Assembly (NCBI RefSeq): GCF_003751225.1 | Contig: NZ_RJKE01000001.1 | Location: 1,178,001 to 1,242,000, forward strand | DNA from: Actinocorallia herbida | Lineage (GTDB): Bacteria > Actinomycetota > Actinomycetes > Streptosporangiales > Streptosporangiaceae | Direction: 5' to 3' | DNA: 64,000 bases | In this document: in pieces, positions 16,820 to 42,634 of the stretch | Numbering within the stretch: position 1 is the first letter of the stretch | Layout of the letters: each line of letters opens with the position of its first letter | Notes under the pieces: generated by a model | Database searches by the model: none | What the model saw: only the letters and a program-made list of their open reading frames with translations | Told to the model about the DNA's origin: nothing | Program-made: the position numbers and the translations under genes

Positions 16820-16875
16820 GTCTAGACCGTTTCGTGCGGCATGTGCCGCTTTCCGTGTTCGTGGAGAGGCGCTCT

Positions 16876-21499: not shown

Positions 21500-22762
21500 A
21501 TGACGACCCTCCGACCACTACTGGCACTCACGCTCCCCGTGGTGTTCGCGGCCGGTTGCGCCTCGCCCACCACGGAGACGGCAGCCCCGAAGGACAAGCC
21601 GACCTACGCCATCGACCGCGACGCCAGCGGCCGTGACGTCTACACCGAGGAGACCCCCGAGGCGAAGTCCCCGGCGGCCTCCGGCGGCTCGAACGACAGC
21701 GCCGGCTCCTCCGCGGAGGACCCGGCGGTCGATCTCGGCCTCGACGAGGCCGACGGCACCGATGGCGCCGACCGCAAGGCCAAGAAGAAGGTCTACAACT
21801 ACAACCCGCCGAAGAACTTCAAGCGCTACAACGCGCCCGGCGTCGTCAACGTCAACAAGCACATCTACCCGAAGCGTGACATCTTCGGCGTCTTCACCGA
21901 CCAGGCGCGCAACCAGATCGCGGACCGCAACGCGCTCGCCAAGAAGGTCGGCATGAAGCCGAACATGATCAAGAGCTTCTACAACTGGGGCAACCCGGTC
22001 GACCCGAACTGGGCGCGCAGCATCTGGAACGCCGGCGCCTACCCGCAGCTGGAGCTCGAGGCACAGGACCCCGCGGTCGCCTCGGTCGCCTCGGTCGCGG
22101 CGGGCCAGGAGGACGAGTACATCCGCGCGCTGGCCCAGAGCATCAAGACCGCGAACGTGCCGATCGTGTTCAGCCCGTTCCACGAGATGAACGGCGACTG
22201 GTACCCGTGGGGCCACTGCGGGCCGACCTCCAAGCCGGAGTCGAACGCCTGCCAGGTCGGCACCACTCCGGCGCAGTTCCGCGCCGCGTGGAAGCGGATG
22301 CACAACATCTTCAAGCAGGTCGGCGCCACCAACGCGATCTGGGTGTGGCAGACCAACCAGATCGGCGCGCGCCCGCAGGTGCGGCTCAAGCAGTTCTACC
22401 CGGGCAACGCCTACGTGGACTGGGCCGGCACGGTGGGCTACTACTACCCCGAAAAGGGCTGGTACGCCTCCTGGAACGAGATCTTCGCGCCCACGCTCAA
22501 GGAGATCAAGAAGGTCACCAACAAGCCGATCTTCATTCCGGAGATGGGCATGGAGCCGAGCAAGAAGTACCGTGCCCGGGACGTCAAGAACTTCCTGAAG
22601 GCCGTCTCCGCTCGCCGGGACGTCATCGGCTTCCTGTGGTTCAACTACAACAAGCCGACCGAGACCGACTTCCGGATCGAGGCCAGCGCGGCGTCCCTCA
22701 AGGCGTTCAAGTACTGGATCAAGCAGGGCACCTACGGCTTCGACCCCCGCAAGGTGAAGTAG
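21500..22762 (+). CDS. GH26-type glycoside hydrolase lipoprotein 2
   Basis: A 420-aa lipoprotein (lipobox FAAGCA, Cys about residue 20). A ~90-residue Ser/Glu/Asp-rich linker is followed by a GH26-type catalytic domain. The acid/base motif is PFHEMNGDWYPWGHCG (E229), closest of the three to classical mannanases, and the nucleophile motif is IFIPEMGM (E348). The long linker would let the enzyme reach away from the membrane. Start ATG 21500 follows GGAG by 11 bases and gives a proper lipoprotein signal; a longer upstream frame has none. It lies 37 bp after the GT-C gene and is probably in the same transcript. Confidence 0.86.
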   Translation: MTTLRPLLALTLPVVFAAGCASPTTETAAPKDKPTYAIDRDASGRDVYTEETPEAKSPAASGGSNDSAGSSAEDPAVDLGLDEADGTDGADRKAKKKVYNYNPPKNFKRYNAPGVVNVNKHIYPKRDIFGVFTDQARNQIADRNALAKKVGMKPNMIKSFYNWGNPVDPNWARSIWNAGAYPQLELEAQDPAVASVASVAAGQEDEYIRALAQSIKTANVPIVFSPFHEMNGDWYPWGHCGPTSKPESNACQVGTTPAQFRAAWKRMHNIFKQVGATNAIWVWQTNQIGARPQVRLKQFYPGNAYVDWAGTVGYYYPEKGWYASWNEIFAPTLKEIKKVTNKPIFIPEMGMEPSKKYRARDVKNFLKAVSARRDVIGFLWFNYNKPTETDFRIEASAASLKAFKYWIKQGTYGFDPRKVK

Positions 22763-23148: not shown

Positions 23149-24138
23149 ATGCAGTTCCGTTTCCTCGTAGCGTCCGCGCTTCCGCTGGCCCTGGTGGCCG
23201 GCTGCTCCTCGACCGGCGGCACGGTGGAGCCCAGCTCGTCGCAGACGGTCGAACACGAAGCCGGCCAGTCGGGCGGCGCCGAGTCCGCGGAGCGGGCCGC
23301 CAAGCGCGAGTACCTGGGCATCTACTCCGAGGGCGCGCAGAAGAACAAGCCCGCCGCCCAGGCCAAGTACTGGAAGAAGAAGGTCGGCCGCGCGCCCAAC
23401 ATCACCAAGCAGTTCCAGGCCTGGTACGCCCCCTACCCGACCGCGTGGGCCAAGGAGGCCCAGAAGGTCGGCGCGATGCCGCAGATCGAGTGGGAGCCGC
23501 ACGGCAAGGGCCTCATGGCCGACATCGCCGCGGGCGAGAGCGACGACTACCTGATCGAGTACGCGAACGCCGTCAAGGCCGCCAAGGTCCCGATCTCGAT
23601 CAGCTTCGCGCACGAGATGAACGGCTGGTGGTACGACTGGGGCACGAAGGGGACCAAGCCGGCCACCTTCGTCAAGGCCTGGCGCCACGTCGTGGACGTC
23701 TTCGACAAGCAGGGTGCGACCAACGTCAAGTGGCTGTGGGCGCCCAACGTCATCTTCCCGATGCCCAAGGTCGGCCTGAAGCAGTACTACCCGGGCGACA
23801 AGTACGTCGACTGGATCGGCGTCATCGGGTACTACCGCAACAAGCAGTCGCAGAAGACCTTCAGCACCATCTTCGAGCCGACGATCAAGAAGATCAAGAC
23901 GTTCTCGAAGAAGCCGATCCTGCTGGCCGAGACCGGCGTGCAGACGGGTCAGGGCCGGGACAAGAAGATCTCCGACCTGCTGTCCAAGGTCGCGAAGCGC
24001 AAGGACATCATCGGTCTCATCTGGTTCAGTATGGACAAGAGGAAAACAGAAGGTACCGATTACCGTCTGGAAGTAAACAAGTCGTCGCTGAAGACGTTCC
24101 GCTCCTACGTGACCAAGTACCCTTTCGGCCGTCCCTGA
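23149..24138 (+). CDS. GH26-type glycoside hydrolase lipoprotein 3
   Basis: A 329-aa lipoprotein, the shortest of the three GH26-type proteins here (lipobox LVAGCS). A short Ser/Glu-rich linker leads to the catalytic domain, with SFAHEMNGWWYDWG (acid/base E156) and LLAETGVQ (nucleophile E261). Lys-rich segments are frequent. Start ATG 23149 follows GGAGG at about 5 bases; the frame upstream of it has no signal peptide. The codons near the end include AAA and GTA-type codons rare elsewhere in the window, but the coding frame is intact. It is followed 22 bp later by manA. Confidence 0.84.
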   Translation: MQFRFLVASALPLALVAGCSSTGGTVEPSSSQTVEHEAGQSGGAESAERAAKREYLGIYSEGAQKNKPAAQAKYWKKKVGRAPNITKQFQAWYAPYPTAWAKEAQKVGAMPQIEWEPHGKGLMADIAAGESDDYLIEYANAVKAAKVPISISFAHEMNGWWYDWGTKGTKPATFVKAWRHVVDVFDKQGATNVKWLWAPNVIFPMPKVGLKQYYPGDKYVDWIGVIGYYRNKQSQKTFSTIFEPTIKKIKTFSKKPILLAETGVQTGQGRDKKISDLLSKVAKRKDIIGLIWFSMDKRKTEGTDYRLEVNKSSLKTFRSYVTKYPFGRP

Positions 24139-24160: not shown

Positions 24161-25291
24161 ATGATCGAGCTGCTCAGGCTGGACAACCCCATCCGGGGTT
24201 ACGCGTGGGGTTCGCGGACTGTGCTGGCGCGGCTGCTCGGGCGGTCCACGCCCAGCGGCGGCCCCGAGGCCGAGCTGTGGATCGGCGCCCACCCGGGCGA
24301 TCCGTCGCGGATCGCGGGGTCGGGCTCCCTGCTCGATCAGATCGCGCTCGACCCCGGTCCGATGCTCGGGCCGGGGGCCGATCGCCTTCCGTTCCTGCTG
24401 AAGGTGCTGGCCGTGGAGTCGGCGCTGTCCATCCAGGTGCATCCCGACGCCGCGCAGGCCGTCGAGGGGTACCAGCGCGAGGAGCAGTGCGGGCCGCCGG
24501 TCGGCGACCCCAAGCGCTGTTACCACGACGACTGGCCCAAGCCCGAGCTGCTCTACGCGGTGACCCCGTTCGAGGCGCTGTGCGGCTTCCGCCCTCCGGC
24601 GGAGTCCGCGGCGCAGCTGCGCGCGCTGGGCGGGCCGCGGCTGGCCCGCGTGGCAGGGCTCCTGGAGCGCGAAGGCAACCGGGAGGCCGTCGTCGCGCTC
24701 ACCGACTGGCCCCACGAGGACCGCGCCGCGCTCGTCGCGGAGGCGGGGCGTGCCGGGGGATGGGTCGCCGACCTCGCCGGGCGGCACCCGTCGGACCCCG
24801 GCGTCGTGGTCGCGCTGATGCTGCACCATGTGACGCTGGAGCCGGGCCAGGCGCTGTTCGCCAGGCCCCGCACGATGCACGCCTACCTGCGCGGCACCGC
24901 CGTGGAGATCATGGCGAGCTCCGACAACGTGCTGCGCGGCGGGCTCACGCCCAAGCACGTGGACCTGCCCGAGCTGCTCGCCGTCACCGACTTCGCCGCG
25001 TCCCCGCCCGAACTCGTGCCCGCGGTGCGCCAGCCGAACGGCGAAGACCTGTACCCCGCGCCGTGCACCCAGTTCCAGCTCACCCGGCTGCGTCTGGAGC
25101 CGGGCGCGGCCGTGCGCGTCGCGGACCCGGGTCCGGGCGCGCTGCTGTGCCTGGAGGGGGAGCTGGAGGTCGTGCGCGGCGCGGTCCGCGAGCGGCTCGG
25201 CCGGGGCGAGGCGCTGTTCCTGCCGCACCTCGGCGGCCCCGTGACGGTCACCGGCGACGGGCTCGGCTTCCGCGCGGGAGTGCCTTCCTGA
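24161..25291 (+). CDS. manA: mannose-6-phosphate isomerase, class I
   Basis: A 376-aa cytoplasmic zinc enzyme that interconverts fructose-6-phosphate and mannose-6-phosphate, the entry step to GDP-mannose and polyprenyl-phosphate mannose. The zinc ligands are visible: Gln92 and His94 in SIQVHPD, Glu129 in WPKPELLYAV, and a later His in the cupin half. GGLTPKHVDLPELL and the C-terminal beta-rich domain are typical. Start ATG 24161 sits 22 bases after the third GH26 gene. Its position among GH26 hydrolases and a CslA-like synthase is the strongest hint here that the locus handles a mannose-containing polymer. manA alone is also a housekeeping gene, so the link is inference. Confidence 0.93.
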   Translation: MIELLRLDNPIRGYAWGSRTVLARLLGRSTPSGGPEAELWIGAHPGDPSRIAGSGSLLDQIALDPGPMLGPGADRLPFLLKVLAVESALSIQVHPDAAQAVEGYQREEQCGPPVGDPKRCYHDDWPKPELLYAVTPFEALCGFRPPAESAAQLRALGGPRLARVAGLLEREGNREAVVALTDWPHEDRAALVAEAGRAGGWVADLAGRHPSDPGVVVALMLHHVTLEPGQALFARPRTMHAYLRGTAVEIMASSDNVLRGGLTPKHVDLPELLAVTDFAASPPELVPAVRQPNGEDLYPAPCTQFQLTRLRLEPGAAVRVADPGPGALLCLEGELEVVRGAVRERLGRGEALFLPHLGGPVTVTGDGLGFRAGVPS

Positions 25292-25393: not shown

Positions 25394-25437
25394 CAGGGTG
25401 ATCCGAAGAACCGAGCGTTGAGCAGGTGTCGTCCCCG

Positions 25438-25530
25438 ATGTCCGTTATGGGCTGGAAGGCCGCCCCCCGGGGCGCTACCGCCGTGCGTGACTCGGACGGG
25501 ACGAAAATTCTGGTCTCTCCCGACAACTAA
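25438..25530 (+). CDS. possible short DUF397-like protein
   Basis: A 30-codon frame from ATG 25438 (or 34 codons from GTG 25426) that includes GATAVRDSDGTKILVSPDN. This resembles the C-terminal half of DUF397 proteins, whose conserved core reads VAVRDSKDPDG-plus-hydrophobics. Normal DUF397 proteins are about 60 residues, so this is either a truncated member or a small peptide of similar sequence. The ribosome site is weak. It lies just after the candidate promoter and operator. No XRE-type regulator, the usual partner, is seen nearby. Confidence 0.3.
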   Translation: MSVMGWKAAPRGATAVRDSDGTKILVSPDN

Positions 25531-25628
25531 TCGCCTTCCCGGCGCATCCAAGCCGTGGAGGCGATTTCTGTTTCCCGGGGGACCCCGGGGGGCTGAGGAG
25601 CCCCTGAGATGAGAGGAGAGACAAGGCC

Positions 25629-25922
25629 GTGCGGTTCCCTTCGATGTCCGGCAGATCGCTCTCCTCGCGCGCGTCCCTGTACTCCCCGAAGGTCGCACGC
25701 GCGCCTCGTCTCCTTGCGGCCTGGCTCCGGCCGGGCCCCGCGACGCACGTTCCGGGCCCCGTGAGGCGGCCCGCGTCCCAACGGCCGCTCGGATCCGCCG
25801 CCCCCGCGCGTCAGGTCCGACCGGCCGCCCCGCCGCTCTCGGGCGGCCCGTTGGAGTTCGTCAGGGAGGCGGCGCCCCCTCGCCAGGCCGCCCCCGTGTT
25901 CATATCGGGTGATTCGCAGTGA
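25629..25922 (+). CDS. 97-aa basic Ala/Pro-rich hypothetical protein, coupled to next gene
   Basis: GTG 25629 follows a strong GAGGAGAG (25613-25620) and opens 97 codons. The stop overlaps the start of the following excalibur-like gene in GTGA. The product is rich in Ala, Pro, Arg and Ser, with few acidic residues and no clear signal or membrane segment. I recognise no family. The ribosome site plus the 4-base overlap, a pattern used by real operons throughout this window, are the reasons to list it. Composition alone would suggest a non-coding frame, and the complementary strand is also open, so doubt remains. Confidence 0.35.
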   Translation: MRFPSMSGRSLSSRASLYSPKVARAPRLLAAWLRPGPATHVPGPVRRPASQRPLGSAAPARQVRPAAPPLSGGPLEFVREAAPPRQAAPVFISGDSQ

Positions 25923-26383
25923 CACGCAACAAGCTGATCTCCCTCGTCGTGGCAGGCGCCGTCGTGGTGGCCGCCGTCGTCGTGGGCGCCTTTCTGGTGC
26001 TCGGACGCGATGAGGAAAAGAGCACGAAGCCGGTGTCGGCGCCCACGGCCCTCGCCGAGGACGTCCCGACCGACGTCGTGACCGGCGAGCCGGACACCTC
26101 CTCGCCCGAGCCGGTCGCGCCGGGCGTCACCATGACGCCCCCCGACCCGAAGGCCGTGGCCCAGGCCAAGGCGAGCCCGATCCCCGTGCCCGAGAACGTC
26201 GACGGGTGCGACCACGCCTATGGCGTTTCGATCTGTGTGCCGTGGGAGTTCCCCAAGGGGGTCGACTCCCAGGCGGAGAAGTGCGAGTACCTGAAGGTCC
26301 GCGGTTTCACGAGGCTGGAGGTCCCGGGCCGGGACCGGCACGGCCTCGACCCGGACAAGAACAAGATCGCCTGTGACAACTGA
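25919..26383 (+). CDS. membrane-anchored protein with excalibur-like Ca-binding tail
   Basis: A 154-aa protein with one N-terminal membrane segment (residues 7-28) followed by a Pro/Thr/Glu-rich linker. The globular end has four Cys and the final stretch DRHGLDPDKNKIACDN, close to the excalibur calcium-binding pattern (DxDxDGxxCE-like). It should face outside the cell. It is translationally coupled to the small gene before it and lies 24 bp before the first GlxA-like oxidase, so it may be co-expressed with it. A scaffold or calcium-dependent wall association is possible; this is inference. Confidence 0.68.
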   Translation: MTRNKLISLVVAGAVVVAAVVVGAFLVLGRDEEKSTKPVSAPTALAEDVPTDVVTGEPDTSSPEPVAPGVTMTPPDPKAVAQAKASPIPVPENVDGCDHAYGVSICVPWEFPKGVDSQAEKCEYLKVRGFTRLEVPGRDRHGLDPDKNKIACDN

Positions 26384-26407: not shown

Positions 26408-28555
26408 ATGACGTTCCACCGGAGGACCCGCTCGGTCCTTTTCGCCTCCGCGGTCGGCGCGGCGGCGGTCATTCCCGGTCTGAGTTCCCAGGCCGTCGCG
26501 GCGCCCACGCCCGCCGTGCAGAACGCGGGCCTGGAGCGCCTGGCCGGTGACTTTCCCGAGTGCTGGGAGCAGTACACGACGGGCGAGAACACCGGCGAGT
26601 TCCGGCTCGCCAAGGGCGCGGGCGGCAAGAACGCGGTCGAGGTCGAGCTGACCCAGCGCACCAGCGGCTTCAAGGCCGTCGTGCAGGACAAGGCGTGCGC
26701 CGTCAAGGTGATGCCGGGCCGCCAGTACGACCTCGAGCTGCGGTACAAGTCGACCTCCGACTCCCCGGAGATCGTGCTGTTCCGCAAGGCCGCGGGCAAG
26801 TGGGCGCGGTGGGAGACCCTGCCGCCGCTGTCGGCGTCCAAGACCTTCCGTGACGCCACGGTCCGCACCCCCGTCGTGCCGGAGGGCACCGAGGAGATCA
26901 GGTTCGGCCTCGCGCTGTCGGAGCCCGGCACGCTCACCACCGACAACTACAAGATCGCCTCCGCCGCCGGCGAGCTGAAGTGCAAGGGCCCCGAGTGCAA
27001 GAAGGGCAAGTGGGTCGTCCGCTCCTTCGCCGGGGACAAGGGCGTGCGCGCGATCCACAGCGTGCTGCTGCACAACGGCAAGGTGCTCATGATCGCCGGA
27101 TCCGGCAACGGCGCCGGCCGGTTCGAGCAGGGCAGGTTCACCACCAAGGTCTACAACCCCAAGACCAACAAGTTCACCAACGTCAAGACCCCGTACGACA
27201 TGTTCTGCGCGGGCCACGTGCAGCTCCCGGACGGCCGCGTCCTGGTGATGAGCGGCACCGAGGAGTACGCCCAGTACGACCCGCAGACCGGTGCGGAGAC
27301 CGCGGGCTGGATCGGGTCGAAGAAGTCCTACATCTTCAACCCGAAGACCAACAAGTACGAGAAGGCCAACGACCTGATCGACGGGCACTGGTACCCGTCG
27401 GCCACGATCCTCGGCAACGGCGACGTCTACTCCGTCGGCGGTTACGCCGCCCAGCGGGCCGCGAACAACGGCAACCTGGTGTCCCCGATCGCCGAGCGCT
27501 ACTCCGTCAAGCAGAGGCGCTGGCTCAACGAGAACGAGGTGGCCCAGCCCGGGATCAACTGGGCGACCTACCCCTCGCTGATGCTCACCCAGGACGGCAA
27601 GCTGTTCTACAACGGCAGCAGCGTCTTCAGCCACCCGGTGAACGCCGACGGCTCGCTGCGCGGCCCCGGCTTCCTGAACCCGACCACCGGCGCCTGGGGC
27701 GCGCTGCCGAACAACGGCAACCTGCGCGCCGCCGCCTCACGCGACATGTCGGCGTCGCTGCTGCTGCCGCCCGCGCAGGACCAGAAGGTCATGATCATCG
27801 GTGGCAAGAACTTCGCGGACAACAACGCCAAGGCCATCCGCTACACCGACGTCATCAACCTCAAGGCCGGCAACCCGCGCTACACCGCGGGGCCGAACCT
27901 GCCCTACGGCACCGTCGAGATCGGCCAGACCACGCAGGCCCAGGGCGGCGGCGCGGGCAAGACCTACGTCTCGGCCGTGATCCTCGCCGACGGCAAGGTG
28001 TTCGAGACCGGCGGCTCGCAGTACACCCGCTCCGAGCACGTCCACGAGGCGTCGATCCTCGACCCGACCAAGCAGGCCAAGAACATGAAGTGGACGTCCG
28101 TCGCCGCCGACCCGGTCGCGAGGACCTACCACAACACCGCGGTCCTGCTCCCGGACGGCCGGGTCCTGGCCGTCGGCAGCAACCCCGACTACCCGGGCGC
28201 CGACGGCGACAGCTTCTTCGACACCCGCATCTCGATCTACTCGCCGCCCTACCTCTACAAGGGCGCGCGGCCGAAGATCACGTCGGTGAAGAAGGGCTGG
28301 AAATACGGCGCCAAGCCGGTGATCAAGACCAACAGCAAGATCACCAAGGCCTACCTGCTCCGGCCGATCGCGGTCACCCACTCCTCGGACCCGAACCAGC
28401 GCCTCGTGAACCTGCCGGTCAAGTCGCTCGGCGGCAACAGCTACCGGCTGACGATGGACAAGCGGGCCAACATCGCGCCCCCCGGCTGGTACATGCTCGT
28501 CGTCCGGACCGCGGGCGGTCAGCCCTCGGTCGCCAAATGGGTGCACATCAGCTAG
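26408..28555 (+). CDS. secreted GlxA-like copper-radical oxidase 1
   Basis: A 715-aa secreted galactose/glyoxal-oxidase-like enzyme that would oxidise an alcohol or aldehyde group to the aldehyde or acid and release H2O2. Signal peptide to about AVAAPT (residue 33). Residues ~35-185 form a beta-sandwich that looks like a CenC-type carbohydrate-binding module (NAGLERLAGDFPECW), then a seven-bladed Kelch domain and a C-terminal DUF1929-type domain. The active site is complete: Cys267 in YDMFCAG and Tyr329 in HWYPSA (thioether cofactor), axial Tyr574 and His575 in RTYHNT, and His658 in VTHSSDPNQ. Spacings agree with fungal galactose oxidase. It starts 24 bp after the excalibur-like gene, so it probably shares its promoter, and it is the first of four tandem paralogues. 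Substrate unknown; a surface glycan is likely. Confidence 0.93.
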   Translation: MTFHRRTRSVLFASAVGAAAVIPGLSSQAVAAPTPAVQNAGLERLAGDFPECWEQYTTGENTGEFRLAKGAGGKNAVEVELTQRTSGFKAVVQDKACAVKVMPGRQYDLELRYKSTSDSPEIVLFRKAAGKWARWETLPPLSASKTFRDATVRTPVVPEGTEEIRFGLALSEPGTLTTDNYKIASAAGELKCKGPECKKGKWVVRSFAGDKGVRAIHSVLLHNGKVLMIAGSGNGAGRFEQGRFTTKVYNPKTNKFTNVKTPYDMFCAGHVQLPDGRVLVMSGTEEYAQYDPQTGAETAGWIGSKKSYIFNPKTNKYEKANDLIDGHWYPSATILGNGDVYSVGGYAAQRAANNGNLVSPIAERYSVKQRRWLNENEVAQPGINWATYPSLMLTQDGKLFYNGSSVFSHPVNADGSLRGPGFLNPTTGAWGALPNNGNLRAAASRDMSASLLLPPAQDQKVMIIGGKNFADNNAKAIRYTDVINLKAGNPRYTAGPNLPYGTVEIGQTTQAQGGGAGKTYVSAVILADGKVFETGGSQYTRSEHVHEASILDPTKQAKNMKWTSVAADPVARTYHNTAVLLPDGRVLAVGSNPDYPGADGDSFFDTRISIYSPPYLYKGARPKITSVKKGWKYGAKPVIKTNSKITKAYLLRPIAVTHSSDPNQRLVNLPVKSLGGNSYRLTMDKRANIAPPGWYMLVVRTAGGQPSVAKWVHIS

Positions 28556-28578
28556 CACCCCCACAGTCCTTCCCGCGC

Positions 28579-28608
28579 GCGTGACGGCGGCCCCCGCCGC
28601 CGTCACGC
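28579..28608 (+). terminator. strong hairpin between oxidase genes 1 and 2
   Basis: A perfect 13-bp stem (GCGTGACGGCGGC / GCCGCCGTCACGC) with a CCCC loop, 24 bp after the stop of oxidase 1. It implies that oxidase 2 has its own promoter in the 60 bp that follow, or that read-through is limited. Confidence 0.7.
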
Positions 28609-28669
28609 TTCGCACCTTCGCGGGACGCGCGGCGCGCGTCACGTGCACGAAAAGTTCGGAGTTTCCCCT

Positions 28670-30826
28670 ATGCGGTACACACGCCCCCGAGCGTCCGCGA
28701 TCATGTTCGCCTCCGCCGTCGGAGCCACCGCCCTGTTCTCGGGCGCGGTTCCCGCGGCCAACGCCGCCCCTTCGCCGAAGGTCCAGAACCCGGGCCTGGA
28801 GAAGGTGTCGGGCGGTCTGCCGGAGTGCTGGGCCAAGTACTCGACCGGCACCAACACCGGCACCTTCGCCTCGGTGAAGGGCGGCAACAAGAGCGCCAAG
28901 GCCGCGACGGTGTCCGTCACCGCGCACCGCGGCGGCTTCAAGGCCCTGCTCCAGAAGCCGGGCTGCGCCATCAAGGTCAACCCGGGCAAGAAGTACGACC
29001 TCCAGCTGTCCTACAAGACGGACTCGGAGAAGACGGCCCTGACGGTCTTCCGGCAGAAGAAGAACGGCGCCTGGGTGAAGTGGCACACCTTCCCCCACCT
29101 GCCGTCGTCCAAGAACTACCGCCTGTCCGTGGGCCGCACCCCCGCGGTCCCGGCGGGCACCAAGGCGATCCGGTTCGGCCAGGGCCTCTACGGCACCGGC
29201 ACCCTGACCACCGACAACTACAAGATCTCCCCGGCCAAGGGCACCGCCAAGTGCGTCGGCTCGGAGTGCACCAAGGGCCACTGGATCGTCCAGGACTTCG
29301 GTAACGGAGGTGTCCGGGCGATCCACAGCGTCCTGCTGCACAACGGCAAGGTGCTGCTCATCGCGGGCTCCGGCAACGACCCGGACAACTTCAACGCCGG
29401 CACGTTCACCACCAAGGTCTACGACCCGAAGACCAACAGGTTCACGAACGTGCCGACCCCGTACGACATGTTCTGCGCGGGCCACGTGCAGCTCGCCGAC
29501 GGGCGGGTGCTCGTCGTGAGCGGCACCGAGGAGTACGCCCAGTACGACCCGCAGACCGGCGCGGAGACCGCGGGCTGGAAGGGCTCGAAGAAGTCCTACA
29601 TCTTCGACCCGGCCACCAACCGGTACACCAAGGCCAACGACATGGTCGACGGCCACTGGTACCCGTCGGCGACGATCCTGCCGAACGGCGACGTCTACTC
29701 CGTCGGCGGCTACGCCTACGAGCGGGCCGGCGGCGACGTCGGCGGCAACAAGGTGTCGCTGGTCAGCGAGCTGTTCTCGGCGAGCAAGAAGCGGTGGCTG
29801 CCCGAGAACCAGGTCGCGCAGACCGGTATCAACTGGGCGACCTACCCGTCGCTGCACCTGACGACGAAGGCGGCCCCGCTGTTCTACAGCGGCGTCAGCG
29901 TCTTCAGCCACCCGGTGAACGCCGACGGCTCGCTGCGCGGTCCCGGCTTCCTCGACCCGTACACGGGCGCGTGGCAGGCGCTGCCGAACAACGGCGGCCT
30001 GCGCAGGGCCGACGCGCGGGACCAGGCGGCCTCGGTGCTGCTGCCCCCCGCGCAGGACCAGCGGGTGATGGTCGTGGGCGGCAAGGACTTCAGCAAGCCC
30101 GACGCGGCGATCCGGCTGACCGACGTCATCAACCTGAAGTCGGCGAACCCGAAGTACACCGCGGGACCGAACCTGCCTCTCGGCACCGTCCACTACGGCG
30201 ACGGCACCGACGCGCCCGTGGGCAGGCAGACCGGCGCCCAGGGCAAGACGTACGTCTCGACGGTCCTGCTGCCGGACGGCAAGGTGCTGGAGACCGGCGG
30301 CTCCCAGGCGGCCCGTGCCGAGCACGTGCACGAGACGTCGATCCTCGACCCGGTGCCGTCGGTGTCGAAGATGAAGTGGAAGTCGGTCGCGCCGGACCCG
30401 GTGAGCCGCAGCTACCACGCCTCGGCGGTGCTGCTCCCGGACGGCCGGGTCCTGGCCGTCGGCAGCAACCCGTGGGACAACTCCTTCGACACCCGGATCT
30501 CCATCTACGCCCCGCCGTACCTGTACAAGGGCGGTGAGACGCCGAAGATCACGTCCTACCAGAAGGGCCTGAGCACCGGCGCCAAGACCACGATCAGCAC
30601 GAGCACGCCGATCACCAAGGCGTCGCTGATCCGGCCGATCGCGGTCACCCACTCCTCCGACCCCAACCAGCGGTCCATCAACGTGCCGGTGAAGGCGCTC
30701 GGCGGCGGCAAGTACCGGCTGAGCATCGACGCCCGCAAGAGCATGGTGCCGCCCGGCTGGTACATGCTGTTCGTCCAGACGAAGACCGGCAAGCCCTCCG
30801 AGGCGCGCTGGGTGCACATCAAGTAA
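28670..30826 (+). CDS. secreted GlxA-like copper-radical oxidase 2
   Basis: A 718-aa paralogue of the first oxidase, same order of parts: signal peptide ending near ANAAPS, N-terminal carbohydrate-binding-like domain (NPGLEKVSGGLPECW), Kelch domain, C-terminal DUF1929-type domain. Cofactor and ligands are all kept: FCAGHVQLADG, DGHWYPSATIL, SRSYHASAVLL, VTHSSDPNQR. Compared with oxidase 1 the N-terminal domain contains many more Lys residues (FRQKKNGAWVKWHTFP) and the region after the cofactor Tyr has an insertion YERAGGDVGGNK. It is clearly closest to oxidase 3 (shared DPVPSVSKMKWKSVA and GSNPWDNSFDTR). Start ATG 28670 is preferred over GTG 28643 because it begins MRYTRPR like the other paralogues. 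Confidence 0.93.
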   Translation: MRYTRPRASAIMFASAVGATALFSGAVPAANAAPSPKVQNPGLEKVSGGLPECWAKYSTGTNTGTFASVKGGNKSAKAATVSVTAHRGGFKALLQKPGCAIKVNPGKKYDLQLSYKTDSEKTALTVFRQKKNGAWVKWHTFPHLPSSKNYRLSVGRTPAVPAGTKAIRFGQGLYGTGTLTTDNYKISPAKGTAKCVGSECTKGHWIVQDFGNGGVRAIHSVLLHNGKVLLIAGSGNDPDNFNAGTFTTKVYDPKTNRFTNVPTPYDMFCAGHVQLADGRVLVVSGTEEYAQYDPQTGAETAGWKGSKKSYIFDPATNRYTKANDMVDGHWYPSATILPNGDVYSVGGYAYERAGGDVGGNKVSLVSELFSASKKRWLPENQVAQTGINWATYPSLHLTTKAAPLFYSGVSVFSHPVNADGSLRGPGFLDPYTGAWQALPNNGGLRRADARDQAASVLLPPAQDQRVMVVGGKDFSKPDAAIRLTDVINLKSANPKYTAGPNLPLGTVHYGDGTDAPVGRQTGAQGKTYVSTVLLPDGKVLETGGSQAARAEHVHETSILDPVPSVSKMKWKSVAPDPVSRSYHASAVLLPDGRVLAVGSNPWDNSFDTRISIYAPPYLYKGGETPKITSYQKGLSTGAKTTISTSTPITKASLIRPIAVTHSSDPNQRSINVPVKALGGGKYRLSIDARKSMVPPGWYMLFVQTKTGKPSEARWVHIK

Positions 30827-30834
30827 GGCCCGAC

Positions 30835-30864
30835 GCGGCGGCGGCTCTCCGGAGCCGCCGCCGC
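30835..30864 (+). terminator. strong hairpin between oxidase genes 2 and 3
   Basis: GCGGCGGCGGCTC and its complement pair as a 13-bp stem with a 4-base loop, only 8 bp after the stop of oxidase 2. As between 1 and 2, this argues that the array is not one simple operon. Confidence 0.68.
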
Positions 30865-30920
30865 TCCGGTTCGCGGACCCCCACCCCACCCCGCAGCACG
30901 ACAGAAGTCCTGGAGCCCCC

Positions 30921-33062
30921 ATGCGGTACGCATATTCCCGTACCTCCGCGGTCCTCGCGGCCTCCGCGGTCGGCGCGACGGCGCTGCTCGCGGGCGCGGT
31001 GCCCGCGGCGAACGCCGCGCCGTCCCCCAAGGTGCAGAACCCCGGCCTCGAACAGGTCGCGGGCGGCCTGCCCAAGTGCTGGGAGAAGTACTCCACGGGA
31101 AGCAGCACGGGCACCTTCGCCTCGGTGGCGGGCGGCAACAAGAGCGCCAAGGCCGCGACGGTGGAGGTCACCGCCTACCGCAGCGGCGCCAAGGCGCTGC
31201 TCCAGGCACCGAACTGCGCGATCAAGGTCAATCCCGGCAAGAAGTACGACCTCCAGCTCGCCTACAAGACGACGTCGGAGAAGACCGCCCTGACCGTCTT
31301 CCGGCAGAAGAAGAACGGCGCCTGGGTGAAGTGGCACACCTTCCCCCAGCTGCCTTCCGCGAAGGGCTTCCGCCTGTCCGTCGGCCGCACCCCCGCGGTT
31401 CCGGCGGGCACCAAGGCGATCAGGTTCGGTCAGGCGATCCAGAGCACCGGCACGCTGACGACCGACAACTACCAGATCTCGCTCGCCAAGGGCACCGCGA
31501 AGTGCGCCGGCTCGGAGTGCACCAAGGGCCACTGGGTCGTCCAGGACTTCGGCGGCGCCGGAGTCAAGTCGGTCCACACGGTCCTGCTGTACAACGGCAA
31601 GGTCCTCATGATCGCCGGGTCGGGCAACAACATCAACGAGTTCAAGAACCCGAAGACCAAGCTCTACGACCCGAAGACGAACAAGCTCACCGACATCCCG
31701 ACGCCGTACGACATGTTCTGCGCGGGCCACGTGCAGCTCCCCGACGGACGCGTCCTGGTCATGGGCGGCACCGACGAGTACTCCGACTACAACGTCACGC
31801 CCGACACCGGGTGGATCGGATCGCGGAAGTCGTACCTGTTCAACCCGAAGACCAACCGGTACGAGGCGGTCAACCTCATGGCCGACGGGCACTGGTACCC
31901 GTCGGCGACGCTCCTGGCCAACGGCGACGTGTACTCCGTCGGAGGCTACGCCGACGAGCGGCAGAACGACGCGGACCAGGGCAACCTCATCTCGCTCGTC
32001 GCCGAACGCTACTCGTGGTCCAAGAAGCGGTGGCTCAAGGAAGACGAGGTCGAGCAGCCGTACATCGACTGGGCCACCTACCCGGCGCTGCACCTCAACA
32101 CCACCAAGGCCGATCTGTTCTACAGCGGCAGCTATGTCTTCGGCCCGGCGCAGTACCCGGACGGGACGCTGCGCGGGCCCGGCTTCCTGGACCCCGACAC
32201 CGGCGCGTGGGGTCCGCTGGCGGGCAACGGCGGGCTGCGCATGCCCAGGGCCCGCGACCAGTCGGCCGCGGTGCTGCTGCCGCCCGCGCAGAACCAGCGG
32301 TACATGGTCATCGGAGGCAAGGACTTCGCCAACGCGGACTCCGCGATCCGGCTGACCGACGTCATCGACCTGCGCAAGGCCAAGCCGCGCTACGCGGCGG
32401 GCCCGGATCTGCCGCACGGCACCATCTACTACGGCGACGGCACCGACGCGCCCGGCCGCAAGCAGACGGGCGCGCAGGGCAAGACCTATGTGTCCGCGGT
32501 GATCCTCCCCGACGGCAAGGTGCTGGAGACCGGCGGCTCCGAGCTGACCCGGTCCAACCACGTGCACGAGACCTCGATCCTCGACCCGGTGCCGTCGGTG
32601 TCGAAGATGAAGTGGAAGTCCGTCGCGGCCGACCCGGTGAGCCGCAGCTACCACGCCTCGGCCCTGCTGCTCCCGGACGGCCGGGTCCTGGCCGTCGGCA
32701 GCAACCCGTGGGACAACTCGTTCGACACCCGGATCTCCATCTACTCGCCGCCCTACCTTTACAAGGGCGGCGACGCACCCAAGATCACGTCCTACCAGAA
32801 GGGCCTGACCACGGGCGCGAAGACGACGGTCTCCAGCAGCAGCCCGATCACCAAGGCGGCGCTGATCCGGCCGATGGCGGTGACGCACTCGTCCGACCCG
32901 AACCAGCGGTCCGTCGACCTGCCGGTGAAGGCGCTCGGCGGCGGCAAGTACCGCCTGACGATCGACAAGCGCAAGACCATCGTGCCGCCCGGCTGGTACA
33001 TGCTGTTCGTCCAGACCAAGTCCGGCAAGCCCTCCGAAGCCCGTTGGGTGCACATCAAGTGA
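30921..33062 (+). CDS. secreted GlxA-like copper-radical oxidase 3
   Basis: A 713-aa paralogue, most similar to oxidase 2 over the N-terminal domain and the last 200 residues, which suggests a recent tandem duplication. The signal peptide ends near ANAAPS. Active-site stretches are YDMFCAGHVQLPDG, DGHWYPSATLLANG, SRSYHASALLL and VTHSSDPNQRS, all intact. The middle of the Kelch domain differs most: a shortened loop (TDEYSDYNVTPDTG) where oxidases 1 and 2 have EEYAQYDPQTGAETAG, and SYVFGPAQYPDG where the others have SVFSHPVNADG. Such loop changes near the copper site would be expected to alter substrate choice. ATG 30921 follows TGGAG by 6 bases. A 650-bp gap follows it. Confidence 0.93.
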   Translation: MRYAYSRTSAVLAASAVGATALLAGAVPAANAAPSPKVQNPGLEQVAGGLPKCWEKYSTGSSTGTFASVAGGNKSAKAATVEVTAYRSGAKALLQAPNCAIKVNPGKKYDLQLAYKTTSEKTALTVFRQKKNGAWVKWHTFPQLPSAKGFRLSVGRTPAVPAGTKAIRFGQAIQSTGTLTTDNYQISLAKGTAKCAGSECTKGHWVVQDFGGAGVKSVHTVLLYNGKVLMIAGSGNNINEFKNPKTKLYDPKTNKLTDIPTPYDMFCAGHVQLPDGRVLVMGGTDEYSDYNVTPDTGWIGSRKSYLFNPKTNRYEAVNLMADGHWYPSATLLANGDVYSVGGYADERQNDADQGNLISLVAERYSWSKKRWLKEDEVEQPYIDWATYPALHLNTTKADLFYSGSYVFGPAQYPDGTLRGPGFLDPDTGAWGPLAGNGGLRMPRARDQSAAVLLPPAQNQRYMVIGGKDFANADSAIRLTDVIDLRKAKPRYAAGPDLPHGTIYYGDGTDAPGRKQTGAQGKTYVSAVILPDGKVLETGGSELTRSNHVHETSILDPVPSVSKMKWKSVAADPVSRSYHASALLLPDGRVLAVGSNPWDNSFDTRISIYSPPYLYKGGDAPKITSYQKGLTTGAKTTVSSSSPITKAALIRPMAVTHSSDPNQRSVDLPVKALGGGKYRLTIDKRKTIVPPGWYMLFVQTKSGKPSEARWVHIK

Positions 33063-33712
33063 CCCGGGGGTCGCGGGGGAAGAGCCGGGACGGGTGTGTC
33101 GGCAGTGGCGATCAGGCACGACTTCATCACGAATTCCCTTCATTTCCATAGAGGATTCGGCGCCGGCCGTTCCCGACGGATGCCGAACGCTCACCGGAAG
33201 TGCGAGACGCCGGAGGCGGCCGGGGGAAGATCACTCGGCGCGCGGGCTTGATGGCGATTCGCCGGGAAAGGCGGGCGGCCTTCCGTCCGGCGGCGCCGGC
33301 GGCGGGGGAGCGGGGTGTGGCGCATGCCATGACGGGCCGCCTCACCCGCTCGTCCGGACCCGCACGCCATGGCGCTGACCTGGGGTCATCGTCGATCGGA
33401 TGTGCCGGGCGACCGGGACCGGACCGGCTCGGCCCCGGCCTTCGGTGCTTCCGCACCCGAGAAATGCGGAGATCATCTCGGGTGCGGATCGGGCTCTGCC
33501 GCGGGTGTCTTTCCTCGGCCGTTCCTGAATGCGTTCCCCTCGCCATCCCGTCGTGTTGACTCTTTGTGCGCGCGCCGGATGATCAATGGGTCGACGCCAT
33601 TTCTCGGCGGCCGATCATCCGGTCGTCTCGGGGGCGTGCGGGTGGTGGCTGCGATGAGGTACAACAATCGTGAACGGATTGGACAAATCCGACATGAGTG
33701 ATTGAGGAGCCG
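33063..33712. other. 650-bp intergenic before oxidase 4
   Basis: The longest gap inside the oxidase array. I see no gene with convincing composition on either strand. It holds a perfect 12-bp inverted repeat (33451-33487) and, close to oxidase 4, an AT-richer stretch (33650-33700) with GGATTGGACAAATCC that is likely promoter or operator sequence. Oxidase 4 therefore appears to be separately controlled. Confidence 0.6.
33451..33487. repeat. perfect 12-bp inverted repeat
   Basis: CCGCACCCGAGA (33451-33462) and TCTCGGGTGCGG (33476-33487) form a 12-bp stem around a 13-base loop. It lies 390 bp after oxidase 3 and 226 bp before oxidase 4, so it is oddly placed for a terminator; a regulatory site or a small RNA terminator are alternatives. 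Confidence 0.6.
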
Positions 33713-35923
33713 ATGCGGTACGAACGTCGAGGGACCCCTGCCGTCTTTGTCGCCTCCGCGGTCGGCGCCACCGCGCTGCTCGCGGGCGGACCCGCCGCGG
33801 CGGCCGCCGCGCCCGCGCCCAAGGTGCGCAACGCGGGGCTGGAACAGGTCTCCGGCGGACTGCCGCAGTGCTGGGCGAAGTACACGACGGGCGACAACGC
33901 GGGCTCGGTCGCCTCGGTCGCGGGCGGGCAGAAGAGCGGCCGGGCCGCGACGGTCACGGTCACCCGGCACCGCAGCGGCGCCCGCGCCCTCCTCCAGTCC
34001 CCGGGCTGCGCCATCAAGGTCAACCCCGGCAAGAAGTACGACCTCCAGCTCGCCTACAAGACGACTTCGGACAAGTCGGCGCTGACGGTCCTGCGGCAGA
34101 AGAAGAACGGCTCCTGGGTGAAGTGGTACACCTTCCCCTACCTGCCTTCCTCGACGGGCTTCCGGGCGTCCGTCGGCCGGACCCCGGCCGTCCCGGCGGG
34201 CACCAAGGCGATCAGGTTCGGCCAGGGCCTGTTCGGCACGGGCACGCTGACGACAGACAACTACAAGATCTCCCTGGCCAAGGGCACCGCCAAGTGCGCC
34301 GGCTCGGAGTGCACCAAGGGCCACTGGATCGTCAACGACTTCGGTGACGGCGGCGTGCGCGCCATGCACAGCGTCGTGCTCAACAACGGCAAGGTGCTGC
34401 TCATCGCGGGATCGGGCAACGGAGGCGCCCGCTTCAAGCGCGGCGAGTTCGTCACCAAGGTCTACGACCCGAAGACCAACACGTTCACGAACGTGCCGAC
34501 CCCGTACGACATGTTCTGCGCGGGCCACGTCCAGCTCCCCGACGGCAGGGTCCTGGTCCTCGGCGGCACCGAGGACTTCGCCGAGTTCAGCGGCGGGGTC
34601 TCCGACGAGGGCATCGGCTACGTCTACGAGTCCAAGGGCTGGAGCGGGGCGAAGAAGTCCTACATCTTCGACCCGGCCACCAACCGGTACTCCAGGGTCA
34701 ACGACATGGTCGACGGCCACTGGTACCCGTCGGCGACGCTCCTGGGCAACGGCGACGTCTACTCCGTCGGCGGCTACGACTACGAGCGCGGGCCGAACGA
34801 GGAGAGCGTCATCTCGCCCTACTCCGAGCGGTTCTCCTGGGCGACCCGCAAGTGGCTCGGCGACGCCAAGGTCCCCGAGACCGACATCAACTGGGCGACC
34901 TACCCGTCGCTGGTGCTCGCCGCCAACGGCAAGCTCTTCTACAACGGCAGCAGCGTCTTCGGGCACCCGTCGTACTACGGCAACGGCAAGATCGTCGGCC
35001 CCGGCTACCTCGACCCCGCGACCGGCGCCTACCGGGAGATCGGCGGCACCCGCGACGACGCGGGCGACAACGCGGGCCTGCGCTACGCGGCCGCGCGCGA
35101 CCAGTCGGCCTCGCTGCTGCTCCCGCCCGCCCAGGACCAGCGCGTCATGGTCATCGGAGGCAAGGACTTCACCGACGCCGCGGGCTTCGGCCTCCGCGCG
35201 ACCGACGTCATCGACCTGCGCAAGGGGAACTCCGCGAACTACGCGGACGGCCCGAACCTGCCCTACGGCAAGGTGGAGATCGGCGGCCAGATCGTCCAGC
35301 AGGGCGGCGGCAAGGGCAAGGTGTACGTGTCCGCGGTGATCCTCGCCGACGGCAAGGTGATGGAGACCGGCGGCTCCCAGTACAACCGGGCCGAGCACGT
35401 GCACGAGGCGTCGATCCTCGACCCGGCGAAGTCCACGGGGTCGATGAGGTGGAAGTCCGTCGCGGCCGACCCCGTCGCCAGGACGTACCACAGCAGCGCC
35501 GTCCTGCTCCCGGACGGCCGGGTCATGGCGATCGGCAGTAACCCGGACATCTCGGTGGCGGCCGACGGCGGAGACAGCTACTTCGACACCCGCATCTCGA
35601 TCTACTACCCGCCGTACCTGTACACCAAGGGCGAGGCCCCGAAGGTCACCAAGGCCTCCAAGCGGTGGTCCTACGGCAGCGCGCCCACGATCACGACGAG
35701 CACGCCCGTCACGTCGGCGTACCTGGTCCGCCCGATCGCGGTCACGCACTCCTCCGACCCGAACCAGCGCGCGGTGAAGCTGCCGCTCAAGTCCCTCGGC
35801 GGCAACCGCTACCGGCTCGACGTCACCGGCAGCCGCAACATCGCCCCGCCCGGCTGGTACATGCTGTTCGTGAAGAACAAGAGCGGCAAGCCGTCCGCCG
35901 CGAGCTGGGTCCGCATCGGCTGA
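33713..35923 (+). CDS. secreted GlxA-like copper-radical oxidase 4
   Basis: A 736-aa paralogue and the most divergent of the four. The signal peptide ends in an Ala-rich run near AAAAPA. The N-terminal binding-like domain, Kelch and DUF1929-type parts are in the same order. Active-site motifs are intact: YDMFCAGHVQLPDG, DGHWYPSATLLGNG, ARTYHSSAVLL and VTHSSDPNQRA. Differences are a long insertion FAEFSGGVSDEGIGYVYESKG after the cofactor Cys, and GHPSYYGNGKIVG plus GGTRDDAGDNAG in later blades, all in loops expected to face the active-site entrance. Start ATG 33713 is 4-5 bases after GAGGAG; GTG 33698 is an alternative. It ends 12 bp from the convergent GH12 gene. Confidence 0.93.
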   Translation: MRYERRGTPAVFVASAVGATALLAGGPAAAAAAPAPKVRNAGLEQVSGGLPQCWAKYTTGDNAGSVASVAGGQKSGRAATVTVTRHRSGARALLQSPGCAIKVNPGKKYDLQLAYKTTSDKSALTVLRQKKNGSWVKWYTFPYLPSSTGFRASVGRTPAVPAGTKAIRFGQGLFGTGTLTTDNYKISLAKGTAKCAGSECTKGHWIVNDFGDGGVRAMHSVVLNNGKVLLIAGSGNGGARFKRGEFVTKVYDPKTNTFTNVPTPYDMFCAGHVQLPDGRVLVLGGTEDFAEFSGGVSDEGIGYVYESKGWSGAKKSYIFDPATNRYSRVNDMVDGHWYPSATLLGNGDVYSVGGYDYERGPNEESVISPYSERFSWATRKWLGDAKVPETDINWATYPSLVLAANGKLFYNGSSVFGHPSYYGNGKIVGPGYLDPATGAYREIGGTRDDAGDNAGLRYAAARDQSASLLLPPAQDQRVMVIGGKDFTDAAGFGLRATDVIDLRKGNSANYADGPNLPYGKVEIGGQIVQQGGGKGKVYVSAVILADGKVMETGGSQYNRAEHVHEASILDPAKSTGSMRWKSVAADPVARTYHSSAVLLPDGRVMAIGSNPDISVAADGGDSYFDTRISIYYPPYLYTKGEAPKVTKASKRWSYGSAPTITTSTPVTSAYLVRPIAVTHSSDPNQRAVKLPLKSLGGNRYRLDVTGSRNIAPPGWYMLFVKNKSGKPSAASWVRIG

Positions 35924-35935
35924 GCCGAGGGGGCG

Positions 35936-36970
35936 CTAGCGAGCGGCGCCGCGCCGCCACCACCACGCCCCGGCCGCCGCGCCCGCGACCACGGGCAGCA
36001 CGATGAGGAACGGCAGGGGCACGCCCGAGGCCCCGCCGTCGCCCGCGGCCTTCTGCTTCGGCGCGGGCTCGGCCTGTGGCGGCACGGACTGCGCCGGGGT
36101 CGCGGGCGGCGGGGTGGCGGTCGGGTTCGGCATCGGCGCGCCCGTCAGGTCGGGGCCGGTCGGCTTCGCCTGCCCGGGATCGCCGACGTGCAGGGCGAAC
36201 GCGTCGGTGCGCAGGCCCACCCCGCCGCGGGTGATCTCGAACCCGGCCTGGACCTTGCACAGGTAGGCGTCCTGCCGCTGGAAGCCGCGGTCCGCGGCGT
36301 CCTTGGCGAACGGCTTGAGGTCGAAGTCGGTGATCGCGGTGGTGTGTTCGCGCATGTCGTAGATGAGCCCGACCTGACCGGTGGGGCCGGTGAACCGGTA
36401 CAGGTCGTAGACCCGGCCGCCCAGGCTCACCCCGTCGGCGATCTTCCACTCGGGGGAGGGGTCGATGCCCGGACTGGTCAGCCAGATCATGATCTCCAGC
36501 GCGCCGCCGTTGGCCACGATGTACGGGGCGGTCGACGTGCAGGCGCCGGCGTCGGGGTGGTACCAGACGTCGTAGGAGGCGTTGTAGTCGCCGTCGGCGG
36601 TCCCGATCGCCCAGGTGGTGCGGACGTCCTTGGGGCTGTCCACGCGCAGTGGGAGGCGCGTGTCGGAGAGCGCGGTGCCGATGTTCGGGTACGCGCCGGG
36701 CGGCGCCCCGTTCTGGAGGTTGCCCCAGTCCAGCGAGCTGGCGCTGACGCTGAAGCCCGCCTTCCCCTCGAAGGTGACACAGATCTCACCGTTGCTGTTC
36801 CACCGGTTGGCCTGGACCGCGTAGCCGCCCTCGACGAACCCCGGCTCGCCGGTGTTGCAGCGGGTCTCGGCATGGGCCGCGGAGCCCCACGGGCACAGGG
36901 CCGCAACCAGCGCGATCGCGGCAGCGCCGCCCAGTGTCGCTCGCAAGAACCTGCCTTCCTTCGGGGCCAT
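35936..36970 (-). CDS. membrane-anchored GH12 endo-beta-glucanase
   Basis: A 344-aa exported enzyme. Signal peptide to about AHAETR (residue 36), then a GH12 beta-jelly-roll catalytic domain: GGYAVQANRWNS, DVWYHPD, nucleophile Glu159 in LEIMIWL and acid/base Glu245 in AGFEITRGG. GH12 enzymes cut beta-1,4-glucan or xyloglucan. Unlike freely secreted GH12 cellulases, it has a Pro-rich stalk (271-310) and a C-terminal membrane helix (about 318-337) followed by RRGAAR, so the enzyme should stay on the outer face of the membrane. Start ATG 36970 follows GATGAGG; ATG 36982 is possible but lacks a ribosome site. A tethered beta-glucanase next to a CslA-like synthase and GlxA-like oxidases fits cutting of self-made glycan. 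Confidence 0.85.
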   Translation of the reverse strand: MAPKEGRFLRATLGGAAAIALVAALCPWGSAAHAETRCNTGEPGFVEGGYAVQANRWNSNGEICVTFEGKAGFSVSASSLDWGNLQNGAPPGAYPNIGTALSDTRLPLRVDSPKDVRTTWAIGTADGDYNASYDVWYHPDAGACTSTAPYIVANGGALEIMIWLTSPGIDPSPEWKIADGVSLGGRVYDLYRFTGPTGQVGLIYDMREHTTAITDFDLKPFAKDAADRGFQRQDAYLCKVQAGFEITRGGVGLRTDAFALHVGDPGQAKPTGPDLTGAPMPNPTATPPPATPAQSVPPQAEPAPKQKAAGDGGASGVPLPFLIVLPVVAGAAAGAWWWRRGAAR

Positions 36971-37060
36971 CGGATGCCTCATCGAAGCACAACGCGGACC
37001 CTTCGCATGTGGGTTCCCGGTACAGATCACACCTCCGCCCGTTTCGTTAACCGCGCGGAA

Positions 37061-42095: not shown

Positions 42096-42184
42096 CGCTC
42101 AACTGGGACGGAAGAGTATCCCAAGGGTTACCTTGGTTGGTCCGTATTGCCGAGAAATATGTGACTTTGCCCTAGGATCCACGG

Positions 42185-42634
42185 GTGGACCGATACCGGA
42201 ATTTGCTCGGCGAGCTCGCGCGCTTCGGCGGCGTGGGCGTGATCTGCGTCGCCATCAACTACCTGCTGTTCAACGTGCTCATGGGCTATGGCCTGGGCGC
42301 GCTCACCGCGAACTCCCTCGCCATGGTGGTCTCCACGACCGTGGGATTCCTCGCCAGCCGCTACTGGACCTTCCGTCACATCCGCACTGCGGGTGTAGCG
42401 CGTGAATACACGCTGTTCTTCGTGATGAATGGTGTGGGATACGTCATCACGCAGGCGGTGCTGGCCATCGCGGCGGCCATGTCACTTGATGGGAAACTGT
42501 GGTCAAATATCGCCTTGACGCTAGGTATCGGGTTGGCGACGATCTTCCGCTACTGGGGCTACAAGCGCTGGGTCTTCGTCGGCGGGGAGACCGAAGTCGC
42601 GTCTGCCGAGCAGTCCCCGCTTGTTCAGCGCTGA
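42185..42634 (+). CDS. GtrA-family small membrane protein
   Basis: A 149-aa protein with four membrane helices of the GtrA/DPMS-accessory family. Typical features are LARFGGVGVICVAINYLLFN at the start, the Asn-Ser and Arg in the second helix pair (NSLAMVVSTTVGFLASRYWTF) and the C-terminal FRYWGYKRWVF. Members move or help flip polyprenyl-phosphate sugars. GTG 42185 is the start. The divergent GT-C gene suggests that the pair handles the same lipid-linked sugar. Confidence 0.88.
   Translation: MDRYRNLLGELARFGGVGVICVAINYLLFNVLMGYGLGALTANSLAMVVSTTVGFLASRYWTFRHIRTAGVAREYTLFFVMNGVGYVITQAVLAIAAAMSLDGKLWSNIALTLGIGLATIFRYWGYKRWVFVGGETEVASAEQSPLVQR

Follow-up and report, generated by a model that had tools for sequence, protein, structure and literature searches.

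In Streptomyces, CslA and GlxA synthesize cellulose in vitro (PMC11022532), and an endoglucanase gene is convergent on glxA beside the cslA-glxA genes (PMC3543389). What purpose a radical copper oxidase serves in glycan synthesis is a question that this system already raises. In another actinomycete genus, the wps-1 exopolysaccharide cluster of Actinoplanes contains a GH26 gene and is needed for sporangium formation (PMC13390465). Here we describe a locus of Actinocorallia herbida in which four AA5 oxidase genes stand beside a GT2 membrane synthase and several glycoside hydrolases, and which is very probably a glycan-synthesis locus equipped with AA5 oxidases. The window analyzed, a stretch of 64,000 nucleotides, corresponds to 1.18-1.24 Mb of the 9.8-Mb genome, and its nearest named records belong to Actinocorallia sp. 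API 0066 and A. populi.

Four tandem copper-radical oxidases and their relation to GlxA

Four complete AA5-type copper-radical oxidase genes lie head to tail at 26408-35923 on the + strand. Their uninterrupted open reading frames (26408-28555, 28643-30826, 30921-33062, and 33698-35923 for copies 1 to 4) show a strong GC-frame signal with GC3 of 0.96-0.98, and all four products score above the PF09118 cut-off of 25 (66-76 bits), which confirms the first-pass annotation of four full-length tandem oxidases of 713-736 aa. Counted from a common ATG (MRY-/MTF-), the proteins are 715, 718, 713, and 736 aa long, the likely start codons of copies 2 and 4 being the ATGs at 28670 and 33713. In each protein, a signal peptide and an N-terminal domain some 160 residues long precede the Kelch propeller and the GO-like E-set domain.

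All four copies have the cofactor Cys (FCAG), the Trp-Tyr pair (WYPS), the axial Tyr-His, and the final His (VTHSSDPNQ); in copy 1, these residues are C267, W328, Y329, Y574, H575, and H658. The set aligns with the copper-radical residues of GlxA (4unm) and is unvaried across all 13 aligned Actinocorallia AA5 proteins. The earlier proposal that all four copies are active is supported in that all four look functional, with a putative Tyr-Cys cross-link and putative oxidase activity. A model of copy 3 (pLDDT 86.8) has the fold of a Kelch propeller plus GO-like E-set domain and matches AA5 structures with Z 38-50. The nearest solved structure to the array proteins is S. lividans GlxA, to which the catalytic part of copy 3 (residues 195-713) compares with Z of about 50 over 470 residues, an rmsd of 1.8 A, and 36% identity. 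Against PF07250, the glyoxal oxidase N-terminal family (cut-off 37.5), copy 1 scores 40.3 and copies 2-4 score 33.7-36.5.

The array proteins had also been called GlxA-like, a label that fails when taken strictly. Their scores for the NCBIfam equivalog NF052501 are 350-372 bits against a cut-off of 800, and GlxA falls in another clade of the tree than the array copies. The inserted domain 2 of GlxA (residues 143-260, between the cofactor Cys and Tyr) is absent: chain residues 115-228 of 4unm, between the two matched stretches, have no counterpart, just 8 query residues lying there, and the array copies carry an N-terminal CBM-like sandwich instead. Nor is the neighboring synthase of the CslA type, as the local GT2 is 25% identical to S. 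coeruleorubidus CslA over 325 aa. The sisters of the array in the tree are a fifth Actinocorallia AA5 protein and, next, AA5 proteins of Streptomyces, Acrocarpospora, and Longimycelium that share the N-terminal domain. Likewise, the statement that Streptomyces normally has one glxA proved incomplete, as many Streptomyces have two or three AA5 genes, one of them from a clade nearer to the Actinocorallia array.

A Trp directly precedes the cofactor Tyr in every copy (W328-Y329 in copy 1), which is a second shell of the GlxA/AA5_1 type. A second-shell role of Trp has been described for W288/W509, and the Trp before the cofactor Tyr in GlxA and the fungal oxidase FgrAldOx is a possible basis of their shared aldehyde-oxidase behavior (PMC13094651). 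By analogy with these two enzymes, we would predict aldehyde-type chemistry for the array oxidases.

The N-terminal domain of copy 3 (31026-31511, + strand) was folded alone with pLDDT 87.2, and the resulting beta-sandwich matches solved CBM4/16/22 domains with Z 12-15 over 132-146 residues, while a sequence search of the PDB found no relative of it. Its counterparts lie at 26510-26989, 28775-29260, and 33818-34303 on the same strand. The model thus points to a CBM4/16/22-like fold with a putative role in sugar binding.

The surrounding cluster and its distribution

The cluster runs, in order, from a divergent esterase gene through GT2, GH26, PMT-like GT-C, GH26, GH26, phosphomannose isomerase (PMI), a small secreted protein, and the four AA5 genes to a convergent GH12 gene and leuA. 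The earlier description, from which the wider cluster was absent, suggested specialized substrates or large-scale peroxide production on one glycan, and the array does very probably sit in a glycan locus. All genes between the esterase and GH12 genes are on the + strand.

The GT2 gene (16834-18789) encodes a cellulose-synthase-like membrane protein, a predicted beta-glycan synthase with intact DDG, DAD, SED, and QQYRW motifs, with which the corresponding proteins of the two other Actinocorallia share 96% and 87% identity. Its nearest solved relatives are cellulose synthases, and its score for the CelA model TIGR03030 is 159 bits, below the cut-off of 699. Divergent from it, the secreted esterase (15301-16344, - strand; PF00756, 97 bits) is matched by homologues at the equivalent place in A. 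populi and API 0066 (68% and 79%). The three GH26 lipoproteins are encoded at 18789-19919 (lipobox LAAC, PF02156 56.6 bits), 21500-22762 (AAGC, 59.2 bits), and 23149-24138 (VAGC, 57.7 bits). They belong to GH26 by score (56-59 bits against a cut-off of 20.2) and by their catalytic Glu pair, kept in HEMNG and AETG/PEMG motifs; the nearest PDB entry to the 21500-22762 product is GH26 endoglucanase H, followed by GH26 mannanases. Between the first two lies the gene for a polytopic GT-C membrane glycosyltransferase of the PMT/ArnT-like type (19909-21462; PF13231, 33.9 bits; at least eight TM-like stretches). The convergent GH12 gene (35936-37030, - strand; PF01670, 59.6 bits) encodes an endoglucanase-like protein with a signal peptide and a C-terminal TM anchor, whose nearest PDB entries are GH12 cellulases and which keeps the EIMIWL and GFE motifs.

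The type I PMI (24161-25291; PF20511, 96.8 bits) is the sole enzyme of its type in this genome and may therefore also have a housekeeping role; API 0066 has a counterpart of it and a second PMI, of an about 49% type. A possible short open reading frame and a hairpin occur downstream at 25400-25600, ahead of the gene for the small secreted or anchored protein (25919-26383). This protein matched no Pfam family and has, by eye, an excalibur-like Cys/Asp C-terminus. The fifth AA5 gene of the genome, at 6.89 Mb with no synthase adjoining, also lies behind a small excalibur-like gene. A. populi likewise has an orphan AA5 after such a gene (L024:9305-12166; the locus in the other species is L006:9941-12662), and the excalibur-like product before the orphan AA5 is about 40% identical to the small protein of the cluster. 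As this pairing recurs in two species, it suggests a partnership between the small protein and these oxidases. A few kb past leuA, at 40041-42634 of the window, a divergent pair encodes a polytopic protein of the PMT-like type and a member of the GtrA family. The pair is kept in A. populi and may supply a lipid-linked sugar step.

The cluster is conserved in the same order in API 0066, with four AA5 genes, and in A. populi, with three. Of 251 genomes sampled in the family, 29 encode at least one PF09118 protein, and tandem arrays occur in the three Actinocorallia only; of 395 genomes sampled in the class, 89 gave matches, and outside Actinocorallia no genome had as many as three within 10 kb. 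Among the sampled family and class genomes, arrays of at least three AA5 genes are thus limited to Actinocorallia, and our literature search found no paper on Actinocorallia polysaccharides or AA5 arrays. Other genera of the family have the GT2 and PMT-like pair without AA5 or PMI, and at one such locus (L114) a GH26 gene separates the two. The AA5 genes, the remaining GH26 genes, and the PMI therefore look added in Actinocorallia. As such, the oxidases look like an add-on that the core GT2/PMT-like pair does not need, a point against the account favored below. API 0066 also has a second GT2 and PMT-like pair without AA5 (L117:6399-10050; from 386540 onward on its contig), 58% and 29% identical to that of the cluster.

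Divergence and control of the four copies

In the tree, copies 1-4 pair one-to-one with the API 0066 copies, and the three copies of A. populi group by themselves. Ortholog proteins of A. herbida and API 0066 are 77-86% identical, and their dN/dS of 0.25-0.39, a rough figure given GC3 near 0.97, places the array copies under purifying selection. Copies 2 and 3 had been taken for recent duplicates. They are not, because each has its own API 0066 ortholog, to which it is 82-83% identical, compared with 76% between the two copies.

Differences between the copies are massed in the middle of the catalytic domain, where pN is mostly 0.19-0.39 between copies and 0.03-0.17 between orthologs, about two to four times more. 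This segment gives strong support to the ortholog pairs of copies 1, 3, and 4 and rejects a grouping of copies 2 and 3 within one genome (p 8e-8 here and 1.5e-10 in API 0066). In the N-terminal domain and C-terminal segments, the orthology of copies 2 and 3 (and of copy 4 in the N-terminal domain) is not recovered, nor is it clearly rejected (p 0.05-0.16), and the N-terminal domains of copies 2-4 have pN of 0.09-0.11 (columns 120-240), as low between copies as between species. These patterns tentatively suggest gene conversion of the N-terminal domains and C-termini. Sliding identity hinted that copy 2 is a mosaic with its middle from copy 1 and its ends from copy 3, but a clade of copies 1 and 2 in the middle segment was disfavored (p 0.03), and the mosaic origin was not upheld. 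Positive selection was also considered, since pN equals or exceeds pS in some paralog segments; at a GC3 near 0.97 this signal is unreliable, and we set it aside. Two loop types occur near the YH motif and before GKTY, one in copies 1 and 4 and the other in copies 2 and 3. The proposal that the copies are specialized fits these data, in that the copies have stayed distinct and differ mostly in that middle part.

The first-pass annotation further read the intergenic regions as signs of separate control. The hairpins between copies 1 and 2 (28582-28612, + strand; z -2.7) and between copies 2 and 3 (30836-30866, + strand; z -4.1) are real, each with a 13-bp stem, and have counterparts in API 0066 (z -4.95 and -2.9). 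They are not classical terminators, as both lack a T-tract and a terminator scan listed none there; partial termination or RNA stabilization would fit them. In A. populi, the first AA5 gap holds a clear intrinsic terminator, a long stem followed by a T run (L023:7585-7790). The gap of roughly 650 bp before copy 4 is present (635-650 bp), but it is not a conserved feature, being about 85 bp in API 0066, and a promoter of copy 4's own was rejected, the single sigma-70-like match at 33556 being at chance level.

Readings of the locus and comparison with known systems

From these features we infer what the glycan is, in which order the steps run, what the substrates are, and that the copies are specialized. 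In the account that we somewhat favor, a synthase-dependent system would produce a secreted beta-mannan or glucomannan, which four specialized oxidases would bind and oxidize. The GT2 synthase would polymerize and extrude a beta-1,4-linked chain, with mannan or glucomannan as the likeliest candidates and the phosphomannose isomerase of the cluster as supplier, and the GT-C enzyme would transfer sugars from a lipid carrier. The anchored GH26 lipoproteins and the anchored GH12 could trim or edit the emerging chain. The four secreted oxidases may grip the polymer by their CBM-like N-terminal domain and use O2 on the polymer or its end aldehydes, with release of H2O2. The resulting aldehyde or acid groups could cross-link or tailor the polymer, and four copies would be retained because their catalytic faces differ. 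As a more tentative and rather doubtful extension, the product may be an oxidized, possibly cross-linked mannan wall, built by a dedicated synthase and four position- or stage-specific oxidases with a common CBM-like domain and different active-site faces; this would be a bacterial mannan synthase-oxidase system, with CslA-GlxA cellulose as only one case of such systems.

Mannose is indicated by the three GH26 genes together with the PMI. The donor specificity of a GT2 is not readable from sequence; the GH26 family also has enzymes acting on other glycans, the GH12 gene indicates glucan, the best PDB match of one GH26 is endoglucanase H, and the PMI may double as a housekeeping enzyme. It is conceivable, if rather unlikely, that the polymer is a cellulose-like beta-glucan in parallel to CslA-GlxA, with the PMI and GH26 proteins incidental or acting on a minor mannose component. 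Cellulose synthases are the nearest solved relatives of the GT2, a cellulase-like GH12 is its neighbor, and CslA-GlxA provides a precedent (PMC11022532). However, the CelA score of the GT2 is far below its cut-off and its identity to CslA low, and three GH26 genes and the PMI are kept in three species. It is still less probable that the set serves degradation, with GH26, GH12, and oxidases attacking plant mannan or cellulose and AA5 giving H2O2 to peroxidases or LPMOs. GH26 and GH12 are classic plant-polymer hydrolase families and three DyP-type peroxidase genes occur elsewhere in the genome, but the GT2 and GT-C genes stand within the same tight same-strand run, and no sugar transporter or regulator is among the genes annotated from GT2 to GH12. 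The hydrolases are also membrane-anchored, and lipobox GH26 proteins together with a TM-anchored GH12 would be expected of synthesis-coupled rather than foraging enzymes.

Compatible with either glycan, the four genes might be redundant dosage copies that raise oxidase output without being specialized, which we consider possible but on the unlikely side. The first-shell residues are identical in all copies, copy number varies (four, four, and three), the A. populi copies group in their own clade, and the N-terminal domains and C-termini look homogenized, all of which redundancy would accommodate. The copy-specific middle regions kept between species and the split of the loop types between copies 1/4 and 2/3 argue against redundancy.

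Among characterized AA5 enzymes, galactose oxidase (1gof; bacterial 9g43) shares the fold (Z 41-43) and copper ligands with the array proteins, but its second-shell Trp lies elsewhere in the sequence, and identity is about 26%. FgrAldOx (9n3u), an AA5_1 aldehyde (glyoxal) oxidase, shares the Trp directly before the cofactor Tyr, but is 24% identical over 447 aligned residues and has a WSC domain rather than a CBM-like one. Closer relatives are the AA5 proteins of Streptomyces, Acrocarpospora, and Longimycelium with the same N-terminal and catalytic domains (44-48% identical to copy 1). Unlike the array, these are single genes with another GT2 type and no adjoining GH26, PMI, or GH12 relative. 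The Streptomyces gene follows GT2, PMT-like, and GT2/GtrA genes (S. coeruleorubidus L052:5918-12397), recurs at many further Streptomyces loci (L025-L099), apparently in an operon separate from cslA-glxA, and we found no literature description of this second Streptomyces type. Actinoplanes wps-1 is one recent precedent for GH26 in an actinomycete surface-glycan cluster, but it follows a Wzx/Wzy pathway, and neither galactose oxidase nor GlxA is mentioned in its description (PMC13390465).

The locus points to a bacterial mannan-type surface glycan, which is checkable by simple sugar analysis, and its four natural oxidase variants, with three more in A. populi, are available for probing oxidase action on a nascent polymer. 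The parallel with cslA-glxA is one of layout and oxidase family: a GT2, an AA5 oxidase, and a convergent endoglucanase gene (here GH12, toward copy 4), with the second-shell Trp of the WY pair and the catalytic fold also shared. In contrast to the array proteins, Streptomyces GlxA is single and TM-anchored, contains the inserted domain 2, and lacks a CBM-like domain at its N-terminus. Actinocorallia adds three GH26 proteins, a PMI, a GT-C, and four oxidases beside a GT2 distant from CslA, and its predicted product is mannan-like rather than cellulose. A remotely related second synthase locus has thus recruited and multiplied another AA5 clade, CBM-like domain included, and the Actinocorallia locus is a new version of the known theme of a GT2 with a copper-radical oxidase, as represented by CslA-GlxA.
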